Origin: Bdellovibrio sp.
GTDB lineage: Bacteria > Bdellovibrionota > Bdellovibrionia > Bdellovibrionales > Bdellovibrionaceae
Assembly (NCBI GenBank): GCA_014376435.1
Contig: JACMRL010000025.1
Location: 62,001 to 126,000, forward strand
Length of the DNA: 64,000 nucleotides
Direction of reading: 5' to 3'
The notes beneath the pieces are model-generated. The model worked only from the letters and a program-made list of their open reading frames with translations. It ran no database searches and was not told where the DNA came from. Shown piece by piece: positions 8,007 to 21,101 of this stretch. The number at the start of each line of letters is the position of its first letter. The first letter of the stretch is position 1. The translations under genes and the position numbers were made by a program.

Positions 8007-8233
8007 GATTCGCTGTTTTCGCCTTTGAATGCTTCCGTTAAAGCTTTACCGCTAGCATCAAAACCAACCAGTTTTTTAACTTGAGCTTCGGCCTGTGCTA
8101 ATTGCCCATGACATTCGCGCGAAAGCTTTACGCCCTCTTCAAATAACTTTAACGATTCTTCTAAAGCTAAATCTCCTTTTTCCATTTTAGAAACAATTTC
8201 TTCTAAGCGAGATAATTTTTTCTCAAAGTCCAT
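8003..8233 (-). CDS. xseB: Exodeoxyribonuclease VII small subunit
   Basis: A 76-residue helical subunit that binds the XseA large subunit to form the single-strand-specific exonuclease VII. The sequence FEKKLSRLEEIVSKMEKGDL with ALEESLKLFEEGVKL is the family signature, ending in an acidic tail. ATG 8233 has AAGGAG seven bases upstream; the longer ORF start at 8251 has none. It overlaps the end of xseA by 11 bases. Confidence 0.93.
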   Translation of the reverse strand: MDFEKKLSRLEEIVSKMEKGDLALEESLKLFEEGVKLSRECHGQLAQAEAQVKKLVGFDASGKALTEAFKGENSES

Positions 8234-9626
8234 TTGACTTCTCCTTCGCAATTAACGATTTAGTGCCGATTACTTCGGCCATGATTAAACCGTCTTTAAT
8301 TTTAATTTCAATTTGATCTGATTTTTTAACATCTTTAATTTTACGAACAATTTTAGCGCCACTTGAAACAATCGAATAACCACGATCCACAACTTTTAAT
8401 GGGCTTAATGAATCAAGCAGGCTCATTACGTTTTTAATTTTGTAGTCGTAAGAACTTAATTTAGTCGTTAACGTATTTGTCATGCGCATTTGAAATTTTT
8501 CAATTTTAGCTTTGAAAGCCTGAATAACATCTGTGGGTTGCGCCAACTGTTCTTGCAACAACTGAACATCATGCTTTTTATTATTTAATACCGACTTCAT
8601 TGAATATTCTAAGCGCGTTAGCAATTCATCATTCCGTAATGAGTAGTCTTGCAATTTCTTTTTAGGATCAATCAATCGCTTTACCGTTAAAGAAAACATT
8701 TGCTGTTTTAAGCGTAAAAGTTTTTGCAAAGTCGAAATCAACATGCGGTCCGCATGATTTAATTTTTGTGTAATCTCAACTGAACTTTTTGCTACAAGCT
8801 CGGCTGCCGCCGAAGGAGTGGGCGCACGCAAGTCTGCAACGAAATCGGCAATCGTGAAATCAATTTCGTGACCAACCGCTGAAATGATGGGAATCGTTGC
8901 TGAGGCAATTAACCGCGCTAGTTTTTCATCATTAAAGCTCCACAGATCTTCCATCGATCCGCCACCGCGACCAATGATAATTACATCAACCGGAAGCTTC
9001 AACGCTAATTGAAGCGAATCAACGATCGAGGCCGCTGCATTAACCCCTTGAACTAAAGCCGGCACTAAAGTGATTTGTACGTTTTTCGCACGACGGCTCA
9101 TGATATTTAAAATATCTTGAATTGCGGCGCCCGTGGGCGAAGTAACGATCGCCACATGTCTTGGATAAGCAGGAATTGGTTTTTTTCTTGCGGCATCAAA
9201 TAAGCCTTCAAGTTTTAATTTTTCTTTTAATTGTTCGAATTGTTTCTGCAAAGCTCCCGCGCCAACGGGCTCCATCGACTCGCACGCAATTTGATAAGTA
9301 CCGCGAGGCTCGTAAACTGTAATTCGTCCGCGAATAATAACTTCTAAACCATCGTGTGGTTTAAATTTTAACTTTGAATTAAATCCGCGAAACATAATCG
9401 CCGAGATTTGCGCTTTGGAATCTTTTAAAGAAAAATAAAAATGACCTGATGAATGTGGTTTAAAATTTGAAATTTCGGCCTGCAACCAAACAATTCCTAA
9501 ATTTCCTTCAAGTGTTTGACGAATGTGTGCATTCAGCTGTTCGACGCTGTAGACAACGGATTCACGTGCAGAAGACTGCTTGCCGGATTCAGAATTTTCA
9601 ATAGGGTTGAAGGTGTCCTGAGACAT
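8223..9626 (-). CDS. xseA: Exodeoxyribonuclease VII large subunit
   Basis: Large catalytic subunit degrading single-stranded DNA from both ends. An N-terminal OB-fold (VYSVEQLNAHIRQTLEGNLG, then VWLQAEISNFKPHSSGHFYF) is followed by the catalytic core with VAIVTSPTGAAIQDI, VIIIGRGGGSMEDLW and AVGHEIDFTIADFVADLRAP (about 155-275), and a long coiled-coil region to about 400. At 467 residues it is full length. The first about 20 residues are a low-complexity extension. AAGG precedes the ATG. It heads the xseA-xseB-ispA-tlyA-patatin operon. Confidence 0.94.
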   Translation of the reverse strand: MSQDTFNPIENSESGKQSSARESVVYSVEQLNAHIRQTLEGNLGIVWLQAEISNFKPHSSGHFYFSLKDSKAQISAIMFRGFNSKLKFKPHDGLEVIIRGRITVYEPRGTYQIACESMEPVGAGALQKQFEQLKEKLKLEGLFDAARKKPIPAYPRHVAIVTSPTGAAIQDILNIMSRRAKNVQITLVPALVQGVNAAASIVDSLQLALKLPVDVIIIGRGGGSMEDLWSFNDEKLARLIASATIPIISAVGHEIDFTIADFVADLRAPTPSAAAELVAKSSVEITQKLNHADRMLISTLQKLLRLKQQMFSLTVKRLIDPKKKLQDYSLRNDELLTRLEYSMKSVLNNKKHDVQLLQEQLAQPTDVIQAFKAKIEKFQMRMTNTLTTKLSSYDYKIKNVMSLLDSLSPLKVVDRGYSIVSSGAKIVRKIKDVKKSDQIEIKIKDGLIMAEVIGTKSLIAKEKSNGL

Positions 9627-10237: not shown

Positions 10238-12352
10238 GTGAAATCTGTTATCAAAGTTAACCTACTTTTTGCTTTTCTATTTCTATTTGCAGGCTGCTCT
10301 GCGATTAAAAATTCTCAGTATGAGCAATATCTTTCTTTAGAATCAGAAATTACGGAGTGCTTAACTAGCTTCACCTATGCTTCACCAAACTACATCAACG
10401 GGACAGCTACTTTTTATAAACGAGGGCTCAACTTAGTCGTGCAGTCTGGTGAATTAAAAAATATGTTTCAAGGAAATCCACTGGCAACTCCGTTACCTAT
10501 TCGCTTTGCGGAAGTTGCGGTTTATGATGGAAGTAATAAATTGGTTCAATGCGGAAAAACGGATGTTACGGGCCGACTAAAAGCGTTAGACGGAATTTCA
10601 AATTTAATTATTCCAGCCACGGCGGGAAATTATACCGTTCGCGTTTTAGCGCGAACTCATAAAACATTAACTTTTGGTGGCAAACTTCCATTTGAAATGT
10701 TCTTGGCCGTTAAAGAAGACATTTACACTAATAAAGTTCATTATGTGTCGGGAACTAGTTATTCAAACGGCGTTGATGGTATTACAAATTTAGATATCAA
10801 AGCATTCGCCCGCCAAACTCAAGATTTAGCAATTAGAGGCGGAGCTTTTAACGCATTAAACACAATTCAAACGGCTTATGAATTTATTCAAAATAATACC
10901 GGCCCCGTAACTACGACCTGTTTAAATAGTAAATTAAACGTTTACTGGAAAGCAGGGTTTAATCCCGGACAATATTTAGAACCTAGTACAAATCCGGCGA
11001 ATGTCACCAGTAATTCATACTATGTAAATGGCGAAAAAAATCTTTTTATCACGGGTGGAAAATTAGGAAATGTTAGTATTGAAACCGCTCATCACTTCGA
11101 TGATTTTGTTATTATCCATGAATTGGGACATTTTATTGAAGCCCAGTGTGGGCAGTTAACGTCTCCCGGTGGTAGTCATTCGATCATTGCACGAATTGAT
11201 CCCCGCTTGGCTTGGACCGAAGGTTGGGCAAATTATTTTGCTGGCCAAGTTATGAATGCTAAAATTTCTTCTTTAAATCCTGAACTTATTCCAAAGCTTG
11301 CGGCCGAGGGATTACCTTCGTCTTGGAAATATTTTTTCGCTTCAAAAGGTTTTACAGATAGTTTTCAAGGAATTACAAATGGTACCGGGTTTATGTTTGA
11401 TATGTCTAAGCCAGGAAATAATCCTGATATTTGGCAAATTGGCGCATTTGAAGGTTTTCTTTTTGACCCCGTCGATCCGCCCAGATATCTCGGCGAAGGT
11501 CACTTTCGCGAGGGTGCAATCACAAGGGGATTATTCAAATTAACAAATACCTGTGGAGCAAATTGTATGAGTGCGTCTCCGATTTCTTTTCAAAATATTT
11601 GGAAAAGTATGGATCGTATTACGGGCGCGGGTAAATCAATCTATACATTTAAAGACTCACATCGAGTATTAGAAATACTTAAAAATTTTATCACGGTAGG
11701 AAATACGGTTCCGGCCAACTGGACACCTTATAAAACCGTAAATCAAGCCACGACGTCTGAAGCACTACAACTATTTAGCGACGGGCTTTATACAACCGGC
11801 GCGGGCGTATCAGCGATTAATCGCTGGACACCTTACGGAACATTTTTAACTACAAAATTGGCGGGCAGTTGCGCTAACGGATTAAATTATATTGAACCAC
11901 GTACCGACGATCCTGTTTTAACTTCTACAAATTCTGATCAGCGCTATTCAAATCAATACTTTACTTTTGATCCGGCTATTTTAACTGGAATCACACAGCT
12001 TAATTTCACTTTCACTAAAGTAAATGGGTCTGGGTCTAACGTAGAATTCGATATACTGCTTTACGGAGCCGGCTACTTTCATGCACCTGACTACACTTGC
12101 ACCGCCTACAATGCGAACGCTGAGTGCGTAGGATCTTGGGCGCCAACACGCACAGTTGCGTCTGATATGTTGCGCAGTGATCGTCGTGCCGGTGCCCTCG
12201 CAACTAAAACGATCAGGACTTTGAACCTGCTTGATCCAACTCAACGTTACTTAATTGATGTGCGCGCTTACACGGCCAACAGATCAATCGCTACGGTTAC
12301 CGATTATTCTTACACAATCACCGATCAGAATGGTTTAAGCATATGCCCTTAA
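10238..12352 (+). CDS. HExxH lipoprotein, copy A1 of a duplicated module
   Basis: A 704-residue surface or periplasmic lipoprotein (FLFLFAGC lipobox, Cys19-20 region) starting at GTG. Visible layout: a carboxypeptidase-regulatory-like beta domain (about 45-180, with RFAEVAVYD and CGKTDVTGRLKALDG), then a zinc-protease-like core with His294-Glu295-LG-His298 and a downstream Glu328 in TEGWANYF, thirty residues later as in gluzincins. At the C-terminus is a domain beginning SDQRYSNQYF and ending VRAYT, resembling pre-peptidase C-terminal (PPC) domains. The metal triad is intact, so peptidase activity is plausible. Its stop overlaps the next gene by 10 bases. The same layout recurs at 12857. No named family was recognised. 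Confidence 0.7.
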   Translation: MKSVIKVNLLFAFLFLFAGCSAIKNSQYEQYLSLESEITECLTSFTYASPNYINGTATFYKRGLNLVVQSGELKNMFQGNPLATPLPIRFAEVAVYDGSNKLVQCGKTDVTGRLKALDGISNLIIPATAGNYTVRVLARTHKTLTFGGKLPFEMFLAVKEDIYTNKVHYVSGTSYSNGVDGITNLDIKAFARQTQDLAIRGGAFNALNTIQTAYEFIQNNTGPVTTTCLNSKLNVYWKAGFNPGQYLEPSTNPANVTSNSYYVNGEKNLFITGGKLGNVSIETAHHFDDFVIIHELGHFIEAQCGQLTSPGGSHSIIARIDPRLAWTEGWANYFAGQVMNAKISSLNPELIPKLAAEGLPSSWKYFFASKGFTDSFQGITNGTGFMFDMSKPGNNPDIWQIGAFEGFLFDPVDPPRYLGEGHFREGAITRGLFKLTNTCGANCMSASPISFQNIWKSMDRITGAGKSIYTFKDSHRVLEILKNFITVGNTVPANWTPYKTVNQATTSEALQLFSDGLYTTGAGVSAINRWTPYGTFLTTKLAGSCANGLNYIEPRTDDPVLTSTNSDQRYSNQYFTFDPAILTGITQLNFTFTKVNGSGSNVEFDILLYGAGYFHAPDYTCTAYNANAECVGSWAPTRTVASDMLRSDRRAGALATKTIRTLNLLDPTQRYLIDVRAYTANRSIATVTDYSYTITDQNGLSICP

Positions 12353-12876
12353 AAATAGCCTGTTTTATTATTTTAATTTTTTTAATTATCAGCGGCGGCA
12401 TTTACTTTGCTCGAAGTAAGCACGTTACCACGTCACCAAGTGGTTTTGCGAATATTACTCAATCTATTTATTCCAATCGTGGAATTGTTGATCGAATTAT
12501 TTCCATTCAATTATCTTCTAAAAATACAGATAGCGAAACCCAAGAAATTACGGCCGAGATTTCAATGCCGTTCGATTATGCGGAAACTCTTCAATACAAA
12601 TGGAATTTGGCGGAAAATGTAGTTATTGCGGCCGGTGATCTAAGCGGTGTAGTTGATAATTTAAAAGCCAGCTCACCCACAAAAATTAAAATATTAGTAA
12701 AAGGTTTCGTAAACAACGAAAGTCGCTTTATTAGTTTTGAGGCTGTCGGGCAAACCACTTCGCGCCGAATCTATGGTGAAAGCTTACTAGCTTCGCAAGC
12801 AGAAAAATCTTTTGAAAATATAGTGCAAAACGTAGAACGAATTAAAGCTTCTCGAAATGGAAAATCACGTGAATAA
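12343..12876 (+). CDS. Membrane-anchored Ig-like partner, copy B1
   Basis: A 177-residue protein with an N-terminal membrane helix (IACFIILIFLIISGGIYF, about 5-22) and a beta-rich periplasmic part. The stretch LQYKWNLAENVVIAAGDLSG then VVDNLKASSPTKIKI matches LTFTWHLPKDAEIVDGSLTG in the second copy (14899), so the two are paralogues. The C-terminus is a short charged helix (SFENIVQNVERIKAS). It overlaps the lipoprotein before it by 10 bases and the one after it by 20 bases, implying coupled translation. The function is unknown; a stalk, inhibitor or chaperone for the adjacent lipoprotein is inference. Confidence 0.6.
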   Translation: MPLKIACFIILIFLIISGGIYFARSKHVTTSPSGFANITQSIYSNRGIVDRIISIQLSSKNTDSETQEITAEISMPFDYAETLQYKWNLAENVVIAAGDLSGVVDNLKASSPTKIKILVKGFVNNESRFISFEAVGQTTSRRIYGESLLASQAEKSFENIVQNVERIKASRNGKSRE

Positions 12877-14920
12877 AATTTTACACCTTAGCCTACTTTT
12901 TAGCTTAGCTTTGTATTCATGCACGCCAGCCGGCGAATCAGTTACCAATACGCCATCCATCGCGCCTGAAGTAAGCGAATGCTTAACCAGCACTACTTAT
13001 ATGTCGCCGGTTATAGTGAATGGTAGCGCGCACTTTTTTAAACGAAATTTAATTCCCACCACTTCGGGAACAAATGTAACCTCTATGATTTTGGGTACGT
13101 CAAATACCACACCTATTCCGATTCAATTTGCAGAGGTACAGGTGATTAATTTTGGCGGTACAGTTATTCAGTGCGGAGTGACCGACGTGAATGGCGATAT
13201 TAAAGCCTTAGATGGAACGTCTAATTTAAATATTTCCAATACAGCTGGTAATTACACGATTAAGGTTCTGGCGCGTACTAACCATACAATGACTGGATTA
13301 CCTGTAGGTAAAAACGTATTCAAAGTTTATGCTTCGGTTAAATCAGATATATATTCGAATGAAGTTCACGCTATTTCGCAAACAATGAGTTCAAACGGAG
13401 TAACCACACTGAGCCCAAATATAATTGCTTATGCTACCGAAAGCGATTCTGCCGAAATTCGTGGTGGTGCTTTTAATATTTATAACGATGTTGTTACGAC
13501 ATACAAATATTTAGGGCAAAGCACCGGCACTAGAAATTTAAGTTGTTTAAGCCCTAAGTTAGAAGTTTATTGGCGGGCTGGCTTCAACCCAGCTCAATAC
13601 ATTTATCCATCGTCTGATCCAAATAGCTTGGGTACTTTATCTTTTTATTTACGCGGCTACAACCAGCTTTATATTAACGGTGGTCGGCTAGGAAATGTAA
13701 AGACTCAAGATACTGATCACTTTGATGACGCCGTTATTATTCATGAACTAGGTCACCGCGTTGAAGATGCTTGCGGAAAAATGGATTCTCCGGGTAATTC
13801 ACACTATGGTCTTTACCGAATTGATCCACGGCTAGCGTGGTCTGAAGGCTGGGGGAATTTCTTTGGCGCGCACATCATTAGAAATAATATGTCTGCCATT
13901 AATCCTGATTTAGCTGCTTCAATTCTAACGCGTGATGGTTGGCTTTATTACTTGGATACTTCAGGTTATAATGACGGCGCCGGCAGTGCGGGTTCGATGT
14001 ATATTTATCTCAATCTTAATCGTTCTGGTGCCAACCCCGAATCTGCATTTGTTAATGGAAATTTACGCTACTACGATAAAGTCAGTTCTGTTAGCAATCC
14101 AGGCGAAGGTCATTACCGCGAAGTTTCGATTGCGCGTAGCTTATTTAAATCAACAAATACATGCACGGCAGCTTGTACAAATTGTTCAAGCTGTACCAAT
14201 GCCGATTATTTTGAAAATTTTTGGCGAGCTCTCGAAAACGATCCGACCGGAATTGGAATGGGAAAAAATATTTTTCCATTCCGCAGCTCGGCGCGCTTTT
14301 ATAGCCGTCTTAACCAATCATTTGGCGGTTCAACTCCGGCCGCAATTGATTCGATTTTAAATTCAAACGAAGCTCAACAACGAGAAGCAAATACCGATTT
14401 TACCGTCCTTGGGAATCGTGTATCTGTACCCTATGGAATTAAATTAATTCCTAGCGCAAGTCTTTGTCCGTTACGAATTCAGCCAAAACCTGGCTTAGGG
14501 CTAACTACGGATTCGGCTTCAGACCAAAGATTTTCAAATCACTTTTATGCGATTGATCTAGCTTCACTTCCCGGAGTTACTAGCATTAATTTAACCGCTA
14601 CAAAAATGTCGGGATCAAACCATGACATTGATCTAATTTTATTTAATCCAAGTTACAAATTTAACGAAGACTGCACGGGTCGCAACGCTGCCGGCGATTG
14701 TACCTCGGTACAAAAATCAACTTCAACCGATGCCGCGCGCGCGGACCGCTCTGCGGGTTTAATAAAACAAGTGACTTCAATCAACACTTTAGATGGTTCA
14801 CAAACTTATTTATTAGATATTCGTAGCTATCCAACCACGTTTCCCGCTATTGATTCGGAATATACTTACACTTTGACTGACCAATCCGGAGGAAACTTAT
14901 GTCCATCACCAAGCTTTTAA
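12857..14920 (+). CDS. HExxH lipoprotein, copy A2 of a duplicated module
   Basis: 687 residues, a clear paralogue of the gene at 10238 along the whole length. Matches include ECLTSTTYMSP, PIQFAEVQVINFGGTVIQCG, RGGAFNIY and LEVYWRAGFNPAQYI. The lipobox is SLALYSC. The metal site is retained: His296-Glu-Leu-Gly-His300 and Glu330 in SEGWGNFFG. It has a Cys-rich insertion (TCTAACTNCSSCTN, about 434-447) not seen in copy A1, and the same C-terminal beta domain starting SDQRFSNHFY. The ATG at 12857 overlaps the previous gene; a GTG at 12869 is an alternative start that would shorten the signal peptide by four residues. Confidence 0.7.
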   Translation: MENHVNKILHLSLLFSLALYSCTPAGESVTNTPSIAPEVSECLTSTTYMSPVIVNGSAHFFKRNLIPTTSGTNVTSMILGTSNTTPIPIQFAEVQVINFGGTVIQCGVTDVNGDIKALDGTSNLNISNTAGNYTIKVLARTNHTMTGLPVGKNVFKVYASVKSDIYSNEVHAISQTMSSNGVTTLSPNIIAYATESDSAEIRGGAFNIYNDVVTTYKYLGQSTGTRNLSCLSPKLEVYWRAGFNPAQYIYPSSDPNSLGTLSFYLRGYNQLYINGGRLGNVKTQDTDHFDDAVIIHELGHRVEDACGKMDSPGNSHYGLYRIDPRLAWSEGWGNFFGAHIIRNNMSAINPDLAASILTRDGWLYYLDTSGYNDGAGSAGSMYIYLNLNRSGANPESAFVNGNLRYYDKVSSVSNPGEGHYREVSIARSLFKSTNTCTAACTNCSSCTNADYFENFWRALENDPTGIGMGKNIFPFRSSARFYSRLNQSFGGSTPAAIDSILNSNEAQQREANTDFTVLGNRVSVPYGIKLIPSASLCPLRIQPKPGLGLTTDSASDQRFSNHFYAIDLASLPGVTSINLTATKMSGSNHDIDLILFNPSYKFNEDCTGRNAAGDCTSVQKSTSTDAARADRSAGLIKQVTSINTLDGSQTYLLDIRSYPTTFPAIDSEYTYTLTDQSGGNLCPSPSF

Positions 14921-15504
14921 AACCGTTAGTTGTTATCACCGCTGGTGCCTTCGTTGGATTTTACGCAGTGCAATTTTTTGTAAATCAACCGACTTCACAA
15001 AGTCGATTTTTAGCTTCGGCAACAATGTCCAAGCTAGGGTCAGAGCAATTTTCAAAATCATTTTTTGATATTAAAATTAAAAATGAAGATTTGGCTGAAA
15101 AAAATGACGCGGTTTCTACCGTTAAAGTAAATTTAGAAGCCTTCCAAAAACTTCCGGCTGGTTTAACTTTTACGTGGCATTTACCCAAAGATGCAGAAAT
15201 TGTAGATGGTTCCTTAACAGGTATTATTACAGAGCTTGAAGCCAGCCAAACTCAAGAATTTGAAATTAAAATTAAGGGTTACTCACACGAATTAAAAAAT
15301 CACGTGGTTTTTGCGATTAAGGGCAGTGTTCAGAACAGTTTGATTGATCGTAACGTGATCGTTTCGTCGCGCCCGGAAGATTCTTTTGAATATATTGTAC
15401 AAGCTTATGAAAAATCTAAGACTTTAGAAGCCAAAGCGAAAAAGAAACTAGGCCAAACCACCACCCATCGTGGACCGATCGACCCAAAAGACGTGATTTT
15501 TTAA
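14899..15504 (+). CDS. Membrane-anchored Ig-like partner, copy B2
   Basis: 201 residues with an N-terminal membrane segment (LVVITAGAFVGFYAVQFF, about 10-27) and a beta-rich periplasmic domain that mirrors copy B1, including the closing helix (SFEYIVQAYEKSKTLEAKAK). The start has a strong GGAGG upstream and overlaps copy A2 by 22 bases. The C-terminal tail is longer and Lys-rich compared with B1. It ends the four-gene unit, and its stop overlaps the stop of nfu on the other strand by 4 bases. No known family was recognised. Confidence 0.6.
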   Translation: MSITKLLKPLVVITAGAFVGFYAVQFFVNQPTSQSRFLASATMSKLGSEQFSKSFFDIKIKNEDLAEKNDAVSTVKVNLEAFQKLPAGLTFTWHLPKDAEIVDGSLTGIITELEASQTQEFEIKIKGYSHELKNHVVFAIKGSVQNSLIDRNVIVSSRPEDSFEYIVQAYEKSKTLEAKAKKKLGQTTTHRGPIDPKDVIF

Positions 15505-16055
15505 AGCGGAATTACTTCGATCGTTGGATTAAATTCATCGCGAAGAATTCCTTCAATCGCCATTAATGTTCCCGTTGTTGAGCTTGGACAAGTGCCGCAG
15601 GCTCCTTGGTAAGAAACATAAACTTTATTTTCATCATACTTAATTACTTCTATATCGCCGCCATCACCTTGCAGGCCTGGGCGAATCGTGCGGTCTAAAA
15701 TTTCTTCAATCGCTTGTAAATCCGGAGATAAATTTTGACGAGAAATTTTCTTTTCATCTAGGACCGTTTGGTTTGGATTATGAACGGCAATACGGGTTTG
15801 AATAACTGCACAAACTTGTTTTTGAATATCTTCACCATCAACATCGAATTGATGAGTCACCGTGATCACATTTTGAAAAAAGTGAACCTGGCGCACGCCG
15901 GCAACTTGAAAAAGTGAGCTGGCCAAGTTGTTATGTTCAGCTTCTTGAATCGTTGAATAAGTTGCCTTGCCTTCGTTTAGTACCGGGCGGTCTAATACAA
16001 ATTTCCAGGCCGCCGGGTTCGGAGTGGCTTGCACACGAATTAGTACATCTGTCAT
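15501..16055 (-). CDS. nfu: Nfu-type iron-sulfur carrier protein
   Basis: Delivers Fe-S clusters to apo-proteins. An N-terminal Nfu-N domain (VQATPNPAAWKFVLDRPVL, about 7-25) precedes the C-terminal NifU-like domain GLQGDGGDIEVIKYDENKVY and the cluster-binding CGTCPSS (Cys-x-x-Cys, about 152-158). The 184-residue two-domain form resembles mitochondrial and proteobacterial Nfu proteins. Its start overlaps the end of sufS by 4 bases, so it is the last gene of the suf operon. Confidence 0.9.
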   Translation of the reverse strand: MTDVLIRVQATPNPAAWKFVLDRPVLNEGKATYSTIQEAEHNNLASSLFQVAGVRQVHFFQNVITVTHQFDVDGEDIQKQVCAVIQTRIAVHNPNQTVLDEKKISRQNLSPDLQAIEEILDRTIRPGLQGDGGDIEVIKYDENKVYVSYQGACGTCPSSTTGTLMAIEGILRDEFNPTIEVIPL

Positions 16056-17269
16056 AAAAGCATCCTTTTGGCTTTTTTCACGCCATCGATTAATTTTTCG
16101 ATGTCACTTTCATTATTATATATAGAAATTGAGGCTCTAATTGTGCCCGTCAAGCCAAGCTTTTTTAAAAGCGGCTGCGTGCAGTGATGACCCACTCGAA
16201 CGGCAACGCCTTGCTGGTCAAGAATTTGTCCGACGTCTGAATGATGTGTGCCTTCCACTAAGAAGCTAACAATTGCTGCCTTCTGTAAAGCTTCGCCAAT
16301 AATTTTAACTCCGCCAATCGCTTTCAATTCGTCTTGCACTGTATGCATCAAAGATTGCTCGTGTTTAAAAATATTTTCTAGATCTAATTTATTAAAAAAT
16401 TCAACCGCGGCCAAGGTTCCGACGGCGCCTTCAACGTGCGGAGTACCCGCTTCAAATTTAAACGGCAGATGGTTAAATGTAGTACATTGAAATTCAACCG
16501 AAGAAATCATACTACCCCCCGTCTGATAAGGCGGCATTTGCTCTAGAAATTCTTTTTTTCCGAACAGTATACCAAAACCAAATGGGCCAAATAACTTATG
16601 CGCTGAAAAAACTAAGAAATCGACGTCCAGTTCTTTAACATTAATTTTCTTCTGTGAAACGTATTGGGCCGCATCCATTAAAGTCATGGCCCCAACTGAT
16701 TTCGCTTTTTTAATAATTTCTTTAATTGGAGTAAAAGTTCCTAAGATATTTGAGCAACTTGAAAAAGCGACGATTTTAGTTTTTTCAGTAATTTGTTCAT
16801 TGATAGAATTTAAATCAATTTCACCATTTTCTAATACCGCAATATATTTTAAAATACATTTCTTGCGTTCAGCCAACATTTGCCATGGTACAATGTTGGC
16901 GTGGTGTTCTAATTCGGTCATGACAATTTCGTCACCCTCGTTTAAAAACTTATCGCCGTAACATTGTGCGATCATGTTAATACTTTCCGTCGTACCTTTT
17001 GTAAAAATAACTTCTTCGATTGTATCAGCACCGATAAAAGTTCTGATCGTTTCACGGGATTTTTCGAATTCACTAGTGGCCGCATCACTTAAGTAATGAG
17101 CTCCGCGATGCACGTTTGCCGTTTCGTAAGAATAAAACTTCGTAATTCTTTCGATTACCGAAAGTGGCTTTAAAGTCGTCGCCGCGCTATCCAGGTAAAC
17201 CAAATCATTTCCGTGAATTTTTTGACTAAGGGCGGGAAATTGCGCGCGCAGCTCCTGAATATTAAACAT
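16052..17269 (-). CDS. sufS: Cysteine desulfurase SufS
   Basis: A PLP enzyme that removes sulfur from cysteine for Fe-S cluster assembly. The PLP lysine lies in FSAHKLFGPFGFGILFG (about 221-237), the His stacking on PLP in TELEHHANIVPWQ, and the persulfide-forming Cys in RVGHHCTQPLLKKLG (about 361-375). At 405 residues it matches the SufS (group II) form. No sufE or sufU lies in the operon, so the sulfur acceptor is either elsewhere or replaced. The start overlaps the sufD end by 8 bases. Confidence 0.94.
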   Translation of the reverse strand: MFNIQELRAQFPALSQKIHGNDLVYLDSAATTLKPLSVIERITKFYSYETANVHRGAHYLSDAATSEFEKSRETIRTFIGADTIEEVIFTKGTTESINMIAQCYGDKFLNEGDEIVMTELEHHANIVPWQMLAERKKCILKYIAVLENGEIDLNSINEQITEKTKIVAFSSCSNILGTFTPIKEIIKKAKSVGAMTLMDAAQYVSQKKINVKELDVDFLVFSAHKLFGPFGFGILFGKKEFLEQMPPYQTGGSMISSVEFQCTTFNHLPFKFEAGTPHVEGAVGTLAAVEFFNKLDLENIFKHEQSLMHTVQDELKAIGGVKIIGEALQKAAIVSFLVEGTHHSDVGQILDQQGVAVRVGHHCTQPLLKKLGLTGTIRASISIYNNESDIEKLIDGVKKAKRMLL

Positions 17270-18536
17270 TTTGAATCATCCGTTCTAATTTGCTGTGCAG
17301 AGACTTCATCAGAAAGTCCTGCACCGACTGGTCCTCAAATTTATAGACGAGTTCTTTAGCATAGCCAAAAGCCAACATTTTTACTGCCTCAAATTGGTTG
17401 ATACCGCGACTCAGAAAGTAAAAAATTTCGTCTTTATTTAATTGCCCCATCGTAGAACCATGACCCGCCTTCACATCATCCGCATAAATTTCTAATTGCG
17501 GAATACTGTTTGCCGAAGCTTCCCGAGTTAATAAAAGATTATTATTAAGCTGTTCAGAATTAGCCTTTTGCGCATCTTGCTCGATACGAACTCGGCCACG
17601 GAATACAGATTGCGATGCGCCCGACAGAATCGATTTATAATGCTGGATTGATTGATTTTCACCAATGCTGTGCTGAATAAAAGTATAATTATCTACGTGC
17701 TGTTTAGAATCTAAAATCGTTAAACCGTAGACTCCCGCAAAAGAGTTTTTACCTAAGAAATTAACGTGCAAGTAATTACGAGTTAACTTTGAACCTAGCG
17801 ACATCGCTAAAGATTGAAATTGCGCATTTGATGCTAAATTTACTTCGCACTGTGAAAAATGATACGATTGCACATCTTCGTTTTGTAATTGAATCATTTT
17901 AACGCGGGCTGAATTAGCCACGCTCACATCAACATTCATGTTTAAAGCATCGCCCGTAGCATTTGCAAAACTAAAAGTATTCACTATTAAAGTTAGCTCT
18001 GCATCTTCACCAACTTTAATGCTAATTTTTTCGCTGACATAAACTGAAGCTTTTGACGACTGAACCACAACAATCTGCAAAGGCTTCGCGAATGTTTTGT
18101 GGCTTTTAATATTGATGATTAATTTTTTTGACAAAAAAGATTTTGATAATTGTAGCATATACGATTCAACATGCTTGTCATCTTTAACCAAATCTTCAGC
18201 CACGATCTCAGACAATGTAATATCGGAATCTAAATCATCCGATAAAGTTTGATTTAAAGATCCATTTACAAAAACTAGATTGTAAAATTCAGCTGGCAAA
18301 TTTTTAGAAATCGCTAATAATTGATCATGCGTTAAAATTTCTTCTTCGAGTAAAGCTGATTGCCAAGGTACCGCTTTAAAATCCGTTAAAGAGGTATACT
18401 TCCAAGCTTCTTCTTTGCGCGTCGGTAAACCTTGGCTTAGAAAATTTTCGAAACTGGCTTGGCGCATTTGATTAGCCGCAATGCTGTCTAGGTTCGATTT
18501 CGATTTAAATTGAAGGTATGTATTTTCCCAACTCAT
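17262..18536 (-). CDS. sufD: SufD scaffold subunit
   Basis: A beta-helix subunit of the SufBCD cluster-assembly complex. The C-terminal family region reads ADDVKAGHGSTMGQLNKDEI followed by FYFLSRGI (about 353-380), including the conserved His in AGHGS. The N-terminal TRKEEAWKYTSL (about 39-50) is typical of SufD. 424 residues is normal. It sits between sufC and sufS with overlaps of 4 and 8 bases. Confidence 0.92.
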   Translation of the reverse strand: MSWENTYLQFKSKSNLDSIAANQMRQASFENFLSQGLPTRKEEAWKYTSLTDFKAVPWQSALLEEEILTHDQLLAISKNLPAEFYNLVFVNGSLNQTLSDDLDSDITLSEIVAEDLVKDDKHVESYMLQLSKSFLSKKLIINIKSHKTFAKPLQIVVVQSSKASVYVSEKISIKVGEDAELTLIVNTFSFANATGDALNMNVDVSVANSARVKMIQLQNEDVQSYHFSQCEVNLASNAQFQSLAMSLGSKLTRNYLHVNFLGKNSFAGVYGLTILDSKQHVDNYTFIQHSIGENQSIQHYKSILSGASQSVFRGRVRIEQDAQKANSEQLNNNLLLTREASANSIPQLEIYADDVKAGHGSTMGQLNKDEIFYFLSRGINQFEAVKMLAFGYAKELVYKFEDQSVQDFLMKSLHSKLERMIQNV

Positions 18537-19282
18537 AAAAGCCAGTCATAACCTTTCTTGTCTAATTCTAAGGCTAAAGAAGCATCGCCCGTTTGAATGA
18601 TTTTGCCGTTAGCCAAAACGTGGACGAAATCTGGTTTAATATATTCTAATAATCTTTGGTAATGCGTAACTAATACCATCGCATTTTGTTTTGAACGAAG
18701 TTGGTTCACACCTTCGGCCACTATACGTAACGCATCAATATCTAAGCCCGAATCTGTTTCATCGAGTAAAGCTAAGCGCGGAGATAATACGGCCATTTGC
18801 AAAATCTCGTTACGTTTCTTTTCCCCGCCCGAAAAACCAACGTTCACGGCGCGGTCTAAATATTCAGGTTTCATTTGCACCAGTTTCATTTTTTGATAAA
18901 GAAATTCGCGAAATTCTCCCTCAGACATTGGCTCAGAGCCTTGATGTTGTAAAACAGAATTAAATGCTGTTTGTAAAAAACTAAAATTTGTAACGCCCGG
19001 TACTTCAACGGGATATTGAAATGCTAAAAAGATTCCCTCTTTCGCACGAACATCCGGAGCAAATTCTAAAAGATTCTGCATCGTGAAGTTAATTTCATAT
19101 TTTACTTCACCCGACGTTACTTCATACGCTGGATGACCAGCCAATACTTTCGATAAAGTACTTTTGCCCGAGCCATTCGGCCCCATAATCGCGTGCACTT
19201 CGCCCGCGTTTACTTTTAAAGAAAGTCCTTTTAGAATTTCTTTACCTTCGATTTTAGCATGTAAATTTCTAATATCTAACAT
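18533..19282 (-). CDS. sufC: SufC ATPase
   Basis: An ABC-type ATPase that drives conformational change of SufB-SufD. Walker A is GPNGSGKSTLS (about 34-44), the signature FSGGEKKRNEILQM (about 148-161), and Walker B with the family-specific LLDETDSGLDIDA (about 171-183). 249 residues is the usual length. Its stop overlaps the sufD start by 4 bases, and it follows sufB after 3 bases. Confidence 0.94.
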   Translation of the reverse strand: MLDIRNLHAKIEGKEILKGLSLKVNAGEVHAIMGPNGSGKSTLSKVLAGHPAYEVTSGEVKYEINFTMQNLLEFAPDVRAKEGIFLAFQYPVEVPGVTNFSFLQTAFNSVLQHQGSEPMSEGEFREFLYQKMKLVQMKPEYLDRAVNVGFSGGEKKRNEILQMAVLSPRLALLDETDSGLDIDALRIVAEGVNQLRSKQNAMVLVTHYQRLLEYIKPDFVHVLANGKIIQTGDASLALELDKKGYDWLL

Positions 19283-19285
19283 TTT

Positions 19286-20704
19286 CTATCCTACCGAATT
19301 TTCTAGTTTCATTTCAATTAACTTCACCGCTTCCACCGAAAACTCTAATGGTAGCTGCTTAAATACTTCTTTACAAAATCCGTTCACCAGCATCGAAATT
19401 GCTTTTTCGCTATTTAAACCACGCGACTGAAGATAAAAAATTTGATCTTCCGAAATTCGCGAAGTGGTTGCTTCGTGCTCTAAAGTTGCGGATTTATTTT
19501 TAACTTCGATGTACGGAAAAGTGTGCGCGCTTGATTTATCGCCGACTAACATTGAATCACACTGCGAATAATTACGTGCATTTTCAGCCGAAGCCATAAT
19601 CTTCACTTGGCCACGATAGGCATTTGATGAATGCCCCGCCGAAATCCCTTTCGAGATAATTGTACTTTTTGTATTTTTACCGATGTGAATCATTTTTGTT
19701 CCGGTATCAGCCTGCATATGATCATGAGTTAATGCCACCGAATAAAATGCACCTTCAGAATAATCGCCCAGCAAAATAACCGAAGGGTACTTCCAAGTAA
19801 TCGCTGAACCTGATTCAACTTGCGTCCAAGAAATTTTTGAATGTTTGCCTTTGCAGATTCCACGCTTCGTGACAAAATTGTAAATTCCGCCCACGCCATT
19901 TTTATCGCCCGTGTACCAGTTTTGTACTGTCGAATATTTAATTTCTGCATTTTCCATCGCGATCAATTCAACGACCGCGGCATGTAATTGATTTTCATCA
20001 CGCTGTGGGGCTGTGCAACCCTCTAAGTAATTAACAAAACTATCTTCCTCCGCGATAATCAAAGTTCTTTCAAACTGGCCCGTTTCTTTAGCATTGATAC
20101 GGAAGTACGTGGATAAATCAATCGGGCAACGCACGCCCTTGGGGATATAAACAAATGAACCATCTGAAAAAACCGCGCCGTTTAGGGCTGCATAGTAATT
20201 ATCCGACGGCGGAATCACAGTGCCTAAGTGTTTTTTTACTAAATCTGGATGCTTCGTTAAAGCTTCCGAAATCGAGCAAAAAATAACTCCGACTTCATCA
20301 AGTTCTTGATGGTGTGTGGTAGCAATACTAACCGAATCAAATACGACGTCGACGGCTACACCCGAAATACGTTTTTGTTCTGATAACGGAATTCCTAAGC
20401 GCTCAAAAGTTTTTACTAACTCGGGATCAATTTCATCCATCGAAGTTTTTTCTTTTTTTTCCTTAGGGGCTGCGTAGTAAGTTAAGGCTTGAAAATCAAT
20501 TTTGGGGTACGAAACGTGAGCCCAGGTAGGCTCAGTCAAAGTTAACCAGTGGCGATAAGATTTTAGACGATAATCTAGCATCCATTCGGGCTCGTTTTTC
20601 TTTAGCGAAATCATGCGCACGATATCTTCGCTTAAACCTTTTGGAAATGCTTCAGTTTCGATATCGGTCGTAAAACCATATTTGTATTCGTAAGATTCAG
20701 ACAT
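19286..20704 (-). CDS. sufB: SufB scaffold subunit
   Basis: The main scaffold on which the Fe-S cluster is built. The family core includes [20 protein letters not shown] (about 229-248, with the cluster-site Cys), [20 protein letters not shown] and [18 protein letters not shown] 20704 is preceded by GAGG at the right distance; the ORF extends to 20716 inside the regulator gene, with which it overlaps by 8 bases. At about 472 residues it is full length. Confidence 0.94.
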
Positions 20705-21101
20705 GCAAAACCTCATGCAACGAAACTGATTTGTAAAATTCTTGAACTTTATTATTTAATGCCAAAATAGGTGAAACAATATTGCAGGTTTCAGAAATAT
20801 CGCAGGCCTCATCCGAACCCAAACATTTCGTTAAAGATGTATGACCTTCTAACATTTCCGTTAAATCATGAACCGATACTTCGCTGAGTGGACGAGCTAA
20901 AAGATAACCGCCACCCGCTCCGTATTCAGCTTTCAAAAGACCACGCGAGGAAAGCGCCTGAAGTACTCGCGCCGTTACATCAAATGGCAAATGCATTTGA
21001 TCGGAAACTTCTTTAGCCGTGGTTAATGCACCCGGGGGCCGCTGACTCATCATTCGCAGCGCCATCAAGGCGTATTCCATTTTTTTATTCATTTTGTTCA
21101 T
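20697..21101 (-). CDS. Rrf2-family Fe-S regulator of the suf operon
   Basis: A 134-residue winged-helix Rrf2 protein: [33 protein letters not shown] and the wing [19 protein letters not shown]. Three cysteines follow the DNA-binding part in [18 protein letters not shown], a C-x6-C-x5-C pattern close to the cluster-binding C-x5-C-x5-C of IscR. It should sense Fe-S or redox status and control the suf operon it heads. It could be called IscR-like or SufR-like; the spacing difference leaves the name open. Confidence 0.88.

Follow-up and report, generated by a model that had tools for sequence, protein, structure and literature searches.

A duplicated pair of overlapping genes in Bdellovibrio sp. 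encodes a predicted thermolysin-type lipoprotein and an anchored immunoglobulin-like partner

Why would a bacterium encode, twice in immediate succession, a large lipoprotein with an HExxH metal site followed by a small membrane-anchored protein? The question is raised by a stretch of 64,000 nucleotides (nt) from Bdellovibrio sp. (assembly GCA_014376435.1, contig JACMRL010000025.1, positions 62,001 to 126,000), referred to here as the window, in which four overlapping genes, A1, B1, A2 and B2, lie on one strand (Table 1). A preliminary description had reported these four open reading frames (ORFs), their overlaps of 10 to 22 nt and the residues of the HExxH...E sites, all of which were recovered in the present analysis. 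Its reading of the locus as a duplicated A-B-A-B module also holds, with A1 and A2 38.6% identical over 713 columns and B1 and B2 30% identical over 86 columns. We propose that A is a zinc endopeptidase of thermolysin-type fold that is exported and anchored by lipid, and that it lacks the long N-terminal propeptide normally used by thermolysin-type enzymes for folding and latency. B, translated from an overlapping start codon, would cross the inner membrane, display an immunoglobulin-like (Ig-like) domain on the far side, bind A, and govern the folding or latency of A until that protein has reached its site. Taken as a whole, this proposal is tentative, a serious possibility that falls somewhat short of probable.

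An HExxH motif followed after 29 to 31 residues by E[GA] was kept in all 100 distinct A proteins, a set obtained from 140 A ORFs by dropping those shorter than 450 amino acids (aa) or having the same last 400 residues. The mean column identity of the family is 23%, and 8 of the 5000 shuffled versions of A1 contained HExxH-x20..40-E. Some distant A proteins show the metal-site motif as EGY in the alignment. The lipobox cysteine was present in 75 of 76 aligned A proteins; a strict lipobox expression matched 71 of the 100, and the alignment count is preferred because the expression was too strict. In the structural model of A2, in which the first strand begins at residue 51, the fold is of thermolysin type, with successive helices carrying HExxH and the third-ligand Glu, an arrangement that leaves the protease reading of the preliminary description unrefuted. 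As modeled, with a thermolysin-type fold and a Glu downstream of HExxH, A belongs with the gluzincins of clan MA(E). Given its predicted fold and conserved ligands, A is likely to be an active zinc endopeptidase, which would cut proteins.

The similarity to known peptidases is one of fold. The window copies matched no Pfam or NCBIfam family over the cut-off and no PHROGs family up to an E value of 0.01. A search of the PDB by sequence returned nothing for A1 alone, a CNA-B-like domain alone for the A profile (E 5.8e-8), and, for the B profile, no match below E 0.046. A is like the M4 peptidases (thermolysin, aureolysin, vibriolysin) in its thermolysin-type fold but differs from them in being a lipoprotein, in sharing about 10% identity with them, and in its HExxH-to-Glu spacing, which is about 19 residues in M4. 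Up to E 10, the Pfam and NCBIfam matches listed for the window copies included no M4 model (HMMER filters drop most matches above 0.1), and no propeptide (FTP-PepSY) was seen in the window copies or among the 25 listed of the 69 Pfam families for 76 members. A is likewise unlike the M36 fungalysins: no propeptide was seen, and PF02128 had no match in the window genome, as was also the case in 14 control genomes. PF02128 stayed below the cut-off in L115, and its best match among 76 members had an E value of 1.2e-4.

The case for a partnership comes from the near-exclusive adjacency of the two genes. The window genome contained two A matches and two B matches and no others. With B1 and B2 as phmmer queries (E up to 1) against the ORFs of 41 sources, whose loci had been picked for having A, all 36 ORFs found adjoined an A ORF. 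When 59 whole genomes were searched in six frames with a B profile, 53 of them yielded 65 matches in total, and 65 of 65 adjoined an A gene; the profile was trained on B proteins adjoining A, and more divergent relatives elsewhere could escape it. By eye comparison, 63 of these lay within 100 nt of an A match, and in G021 and G023 the B match lay 300-900 nt beyond the matched part of the A frame. From the side of A, 96 of the 100 distinct proteins had at least 450 nt downstream, and in 92 of these 96 a B followed at E up to 1e-3. At two loci (L056 and L064), the ORF that follows A (170 or 150 aa) begins with a lipobox-like sequence and was unmatched by the B profile hidden Markov model; hhalign compared the L056 ORF to B at 86.7% (E 4.4e-6) and the L064 ORF at just 57%. 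At L049 the A frame is interrupted and B lies beyond, and the last of the 96, L071, is an A-B fusion. Overlapping A/B junctions numbered 87, with the same relative frame in 83, and since they share ancestry they are not independent. Both proteins would be made in similar amounts. Rare adjacency of A and B in other genomes would have spoken against the preliminary description; they are adjacent nearly everywhere, and together with the thermolysin-type model of A this lends support to its view of A as a protease-like protein with a dedicated partner. There is good support for B working with A.

Two fusions, in which the A frame runs into a B domain, testify directly to a functional link: L071 5157-7448 (763 aa, B domain at residues 606-717, E 8.9e-7) and L149 3669-5921 (750 aa, residues 608-719, E 2.3e-9). 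Both occur in genus g51, in genomes of 1.2-1.3 Mb, and, so far as observed, amount to a single event confined to that genus. In neither fusion does the B profile match over its N-terminal (anchor) part. Such a fusion implies that in g51 the two domains share one side of the membrane.

The pairing extends to distant relatives of A, found in classes other than Bdellovibrionia or as second copies within the order. Of 16 such loci, 13 had a small exported-looking ORF directly downstream, and the other three consisted of one at a contig end, one without room, and one stop-containing copy without a partner. Comparison of the profile of these distant partners with that of class B gave 96.4% (E 1.2e-9, 143 columns). 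A Comamonadaceae plasmid bears a distant A-B pair as two adjacent hypothetical-protein genes with a 4-nt overlap. The A relative on Burkholderia ambifaria plasmid pBMC401 (L181 3680-5434) lacks the third-ligand position, and no partner was seen downstream of it; it is perhaps a decaying solo copy. Members of family f10 (L160-L164) have extra distant-type A copies at other places; the four with room each have their own small downstream ORF, and L162 lies at a contig edge.

The model of B2 consists of an anchor helix (residues 3-28), a low-confidence linker, an Ig-like domain (about 52-159), and a C-terminal helix (163-185). The N terminus of B varies: it is a helix in the window copies and, judged by eye, is lipobox-like in two loci and signal-peptide-like in some distant relatives. 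The earlier assignment of A as a lipoprotein and B as an anchored protein is borne out by the lipobox cysteine and by the single N-terminal helix of the B2 model. The membrane-bound stalk that had been suggested for B is weakened by this variable N terminus, unmatched altogether in the two fusions, and a surface stalk is disfavoured by that variability. In many B proteins, short conserved motifs flank the Ig-like domain, with RxxAS after the anchor and SRPEDSxE near the C terminus in this family.

An anchored helper encoded beside its one client is known in LipH/Lif, which B resembles in this respect; B differs in that its client has a peptidase fold rather than that of a lipase and in being a beta-sandwich, whereas the Lif fold is helical. 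PMC13381987 presents LipH/Lif as a lipase-specific foldase, a membrane-anchored periplasmic helper. We favour a role of B in folding or latency, not in substrate docking, because A is without the usual propeptide and because an operon of an M4 enzyme with its inhibitor, protealysin-emfourin, is documented (PMC9505478). The A-B pair is like protealysin-emfourin in that a single operon encodes both a thermolysin-type enzyme and the small protein dedicated to it. The differences are that protealysin is described in PMC9505478 as intracellular and that B1 and B2 matched no emfourin family, none appearing either among the 25 listed of the 60 families for 77 members. In its strongest form the proposal would have B act in trans as a propeptide: Ig-like and tethered to the membrane, B would serve both folding and latency in place of the N-terminal propeptide of a thermolysin-type enzyme, within an unnamed two-gene module that extends beyond one phylum and was re-fused in one genus; we regard this version as unlikely. 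No description of the A-B pair appeared among the papers listed by the literature searches. The domains and the fold are already known; the novelty lies in how nearly exclusively a thermolysin-type lipoprotein without a propeptide is paired with an Ig-like protein, in the age of this pairing, and in its fusions.

Several points weigh against a folding or latency role for B, or against the reading of A on which it depends. Other metallopeptidases fold without a propeptide. The Foldseek superposition of A on thermolysin is loose (TM score 0.28 by query, root-mean-square deviation 9.2), and the catalytic His of the second thermolysin lobe was not located in A; conserved in that lobe are Arg421 and Glu422. 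Five A-bearing genomes (G028, G068, G069, G070, and G078) had no B match; a sixth genome without B, G074, had neither. The beta-sandwich of B is a common fold, its best structural matches being diverse, and the profile alignment between distant and class B proteins includes their hydrophobic N termini. Distances of A and B correlate weakly (Spearman 0.37, 54 loci), and the correlation of B with SufS is higher (Spearman 0.45, 54 loci); the distance correlation was uninformative.

The position of B in the fusions bears on the closest rival, in which B is a permanent accessory subunit that docks A to the membrane or to a substrate and takes no part in folding or latency. Both fusions retain B as a C-terminal domain of A, which a permanent subunit fits at least as well, and the variable N terminus and an Ig-like fold, typical of binding modules, point the same way. 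However, A is already anchored, CarboxypepD_reg and probable PPC modules are recognisable in several of its relatives, and the missing propeptide would be left unexplained. This rival is doubtful in its own right, yet nearly as likely as a role of B in folding or latency. It is improbable that A is an inactive envelope binding protein whose metal site is kept for structure. The departure of its sequence from the M4 and M36 models would agree with this, as would the B. ambifaria plasmid relative, in which the third-ligand position is not kept and there is no B gene, but all 100 class members examined retain the metal ligands despite their low mean identity. Slightly less probable again is that A is a weapon against neighbouring or prey cells and B its immunity protein, as proposed for protealysin-emfourin: the overlapping enzyme-partner gene order, the published M4 operon and the greater divergence of B than of A (mean distance 0.81 versus 0.63, 54 loci) are consistent with it, but the fusion of B to A in two genomes, where the protector could not stay behind, makes a toxin-immunity pair unlikely. 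Also against it, the locus keeps to a single position across most of the class, whereas the spread of such systems is usually patchy, and one scan of viral_contigs found no relative.

The A tree places the window in or beside Pseudobdellovibrio. In the A tree all 21 rows of the window's genus group together (100/100), and 11 A1-type copies, the window's A1 among them, form one clade (100/100); the second copies are not monophyletic, and their weakly supported branches surround the A1 clade. In the B tree the 13 B1-type copies are monophyletic (99/99), and the grouping of the 10 B2-type copies has support of 94/90. Against single copies outside the genus, A2 gave better E values than A1. The two units share ancestry. 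A single duplication event is not proven by the A tree alone; the simplest account is one tandem duplication of the A-B unit in Pseudobdellovibrio, each A keeping its own B, with partners never exchanged since. A recent duplication is ruled out by the 39% identity of the A copies and by the duplicate clades across the genus.

With the A profile, 149 of 324 phylum genomes (completeness at least 80) were matched: 110 of 129 in the class and 39 of 195 elsewhere in the phylum, a class count which assumes that 155 unlisted non-matching genomes lie outside the class, as the list order suggests. Among the 19 class genomes without A, 10 are of 1.4-2.0 Mb, and five belong to genus g6 (L169-L173; 3.2-4.1 Mb), taken in part from the tree to be Bdellovibrio, in which the interval between the iron-sulfur (Fe-S) genes and xseA contains neither A nor B. 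The record L123, titled as a Streptomyces griseus metagenome-assembled genome, bears a Bdellovibrionota-type A-B pair and is probably a mislabelled bin. A phage or mobile origin was rejected: the distant-A profile found no relative in one scan of viral_contigs, and four plasmid tblastn searches returned the same two records each time. The preliminary description had thought that the module would fit a predatory lifestyle; a special role in predation is not supported by this distribution, with A widespread in the class, missing from five presumed Bdellovibrio genomes, and in a distant pair on a Comamonadaceae plasmid; a system special to predation is rejected on the same ground. A-B may still have some part in predation.

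The surroundings of the module suggest that it is old. Homologues of 15501-16055 and of 16052-17269, in the Fe-S block, were each present in 83 of 117 class loci, and xseA homologues were present in 38 of 117; some genomes are counted twice among these loci, and many loci stop at a contig edge. The Fe-S block is the convergent neighbour of the module across most of the class, and its presence in 83 loci indicates that the A-B locus is old and mostly fixed. The names SUF and xseA are those we give these genes from their sequences. Within the module, no ribosome site was seen before the A2 ATG at 12857, and A2 may start instead at the GTG at 12869; a GGAGG lies directly 5' of the B2 ATG. For Bd0185-Bd0196, the sole Bdellovibrio paper found in the open-access library was PMC2797640, which gives Bd0187 and Bd0188 as Fe-S assembly genes.

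Table 1. Features of the A-B module and its flanking landmarks, in window coordinates (pLDDT, predicted local distance difference test)
Feature	Position	Strand	Details
A1, lipoprotein, predicted thermolysin-type metallopeptidase paralogue	10238..12352	+	704 aa; H294/E295/H298/E328
B1, N-terminal membrane anchor and Ig-like domain, putative partner of A1	12343..12876	+	177 aa; fold inferred from B2
A2, lipoprotein, predicted thermolysin-type metallopeptidase paralogue	12857..14920	+	687 aa; H296/E297/H300/E330; model pLDDT 91
B2, anchored Ig-like protein, putative partner of A2	14899..15504	+	201 aa; model pLDDT 88
A1/B1 overlap, 10 nt	12343..12352	+	
B1/A2 overlap	12857..12876	+	20 nt if ATG 12857, 8 nt if GTG 12869
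A2/B2 overlap, 22 nt	14899..14920	+	GGAGG of B2 inside A2
Fe-S assembly (presumably SUF) gene block, convergent neighbour	15501..20716	-	landmark outside module
xseA (presumed)	8223..9626	-	upstream landmark

A widespread, long-inherited envelope protease-partner pair of the Bdellovibrionia thereby gains a predicted fold, a boundary, and a partner relation that can be tested. Bdellovibrio bacteriovorus HD100 appears to have a single pair, and the roles of A and B are therefore testable there by gene removal. The distribution of the pair also urges caution, in that not every surface protease of these bacteria is a predation factor.
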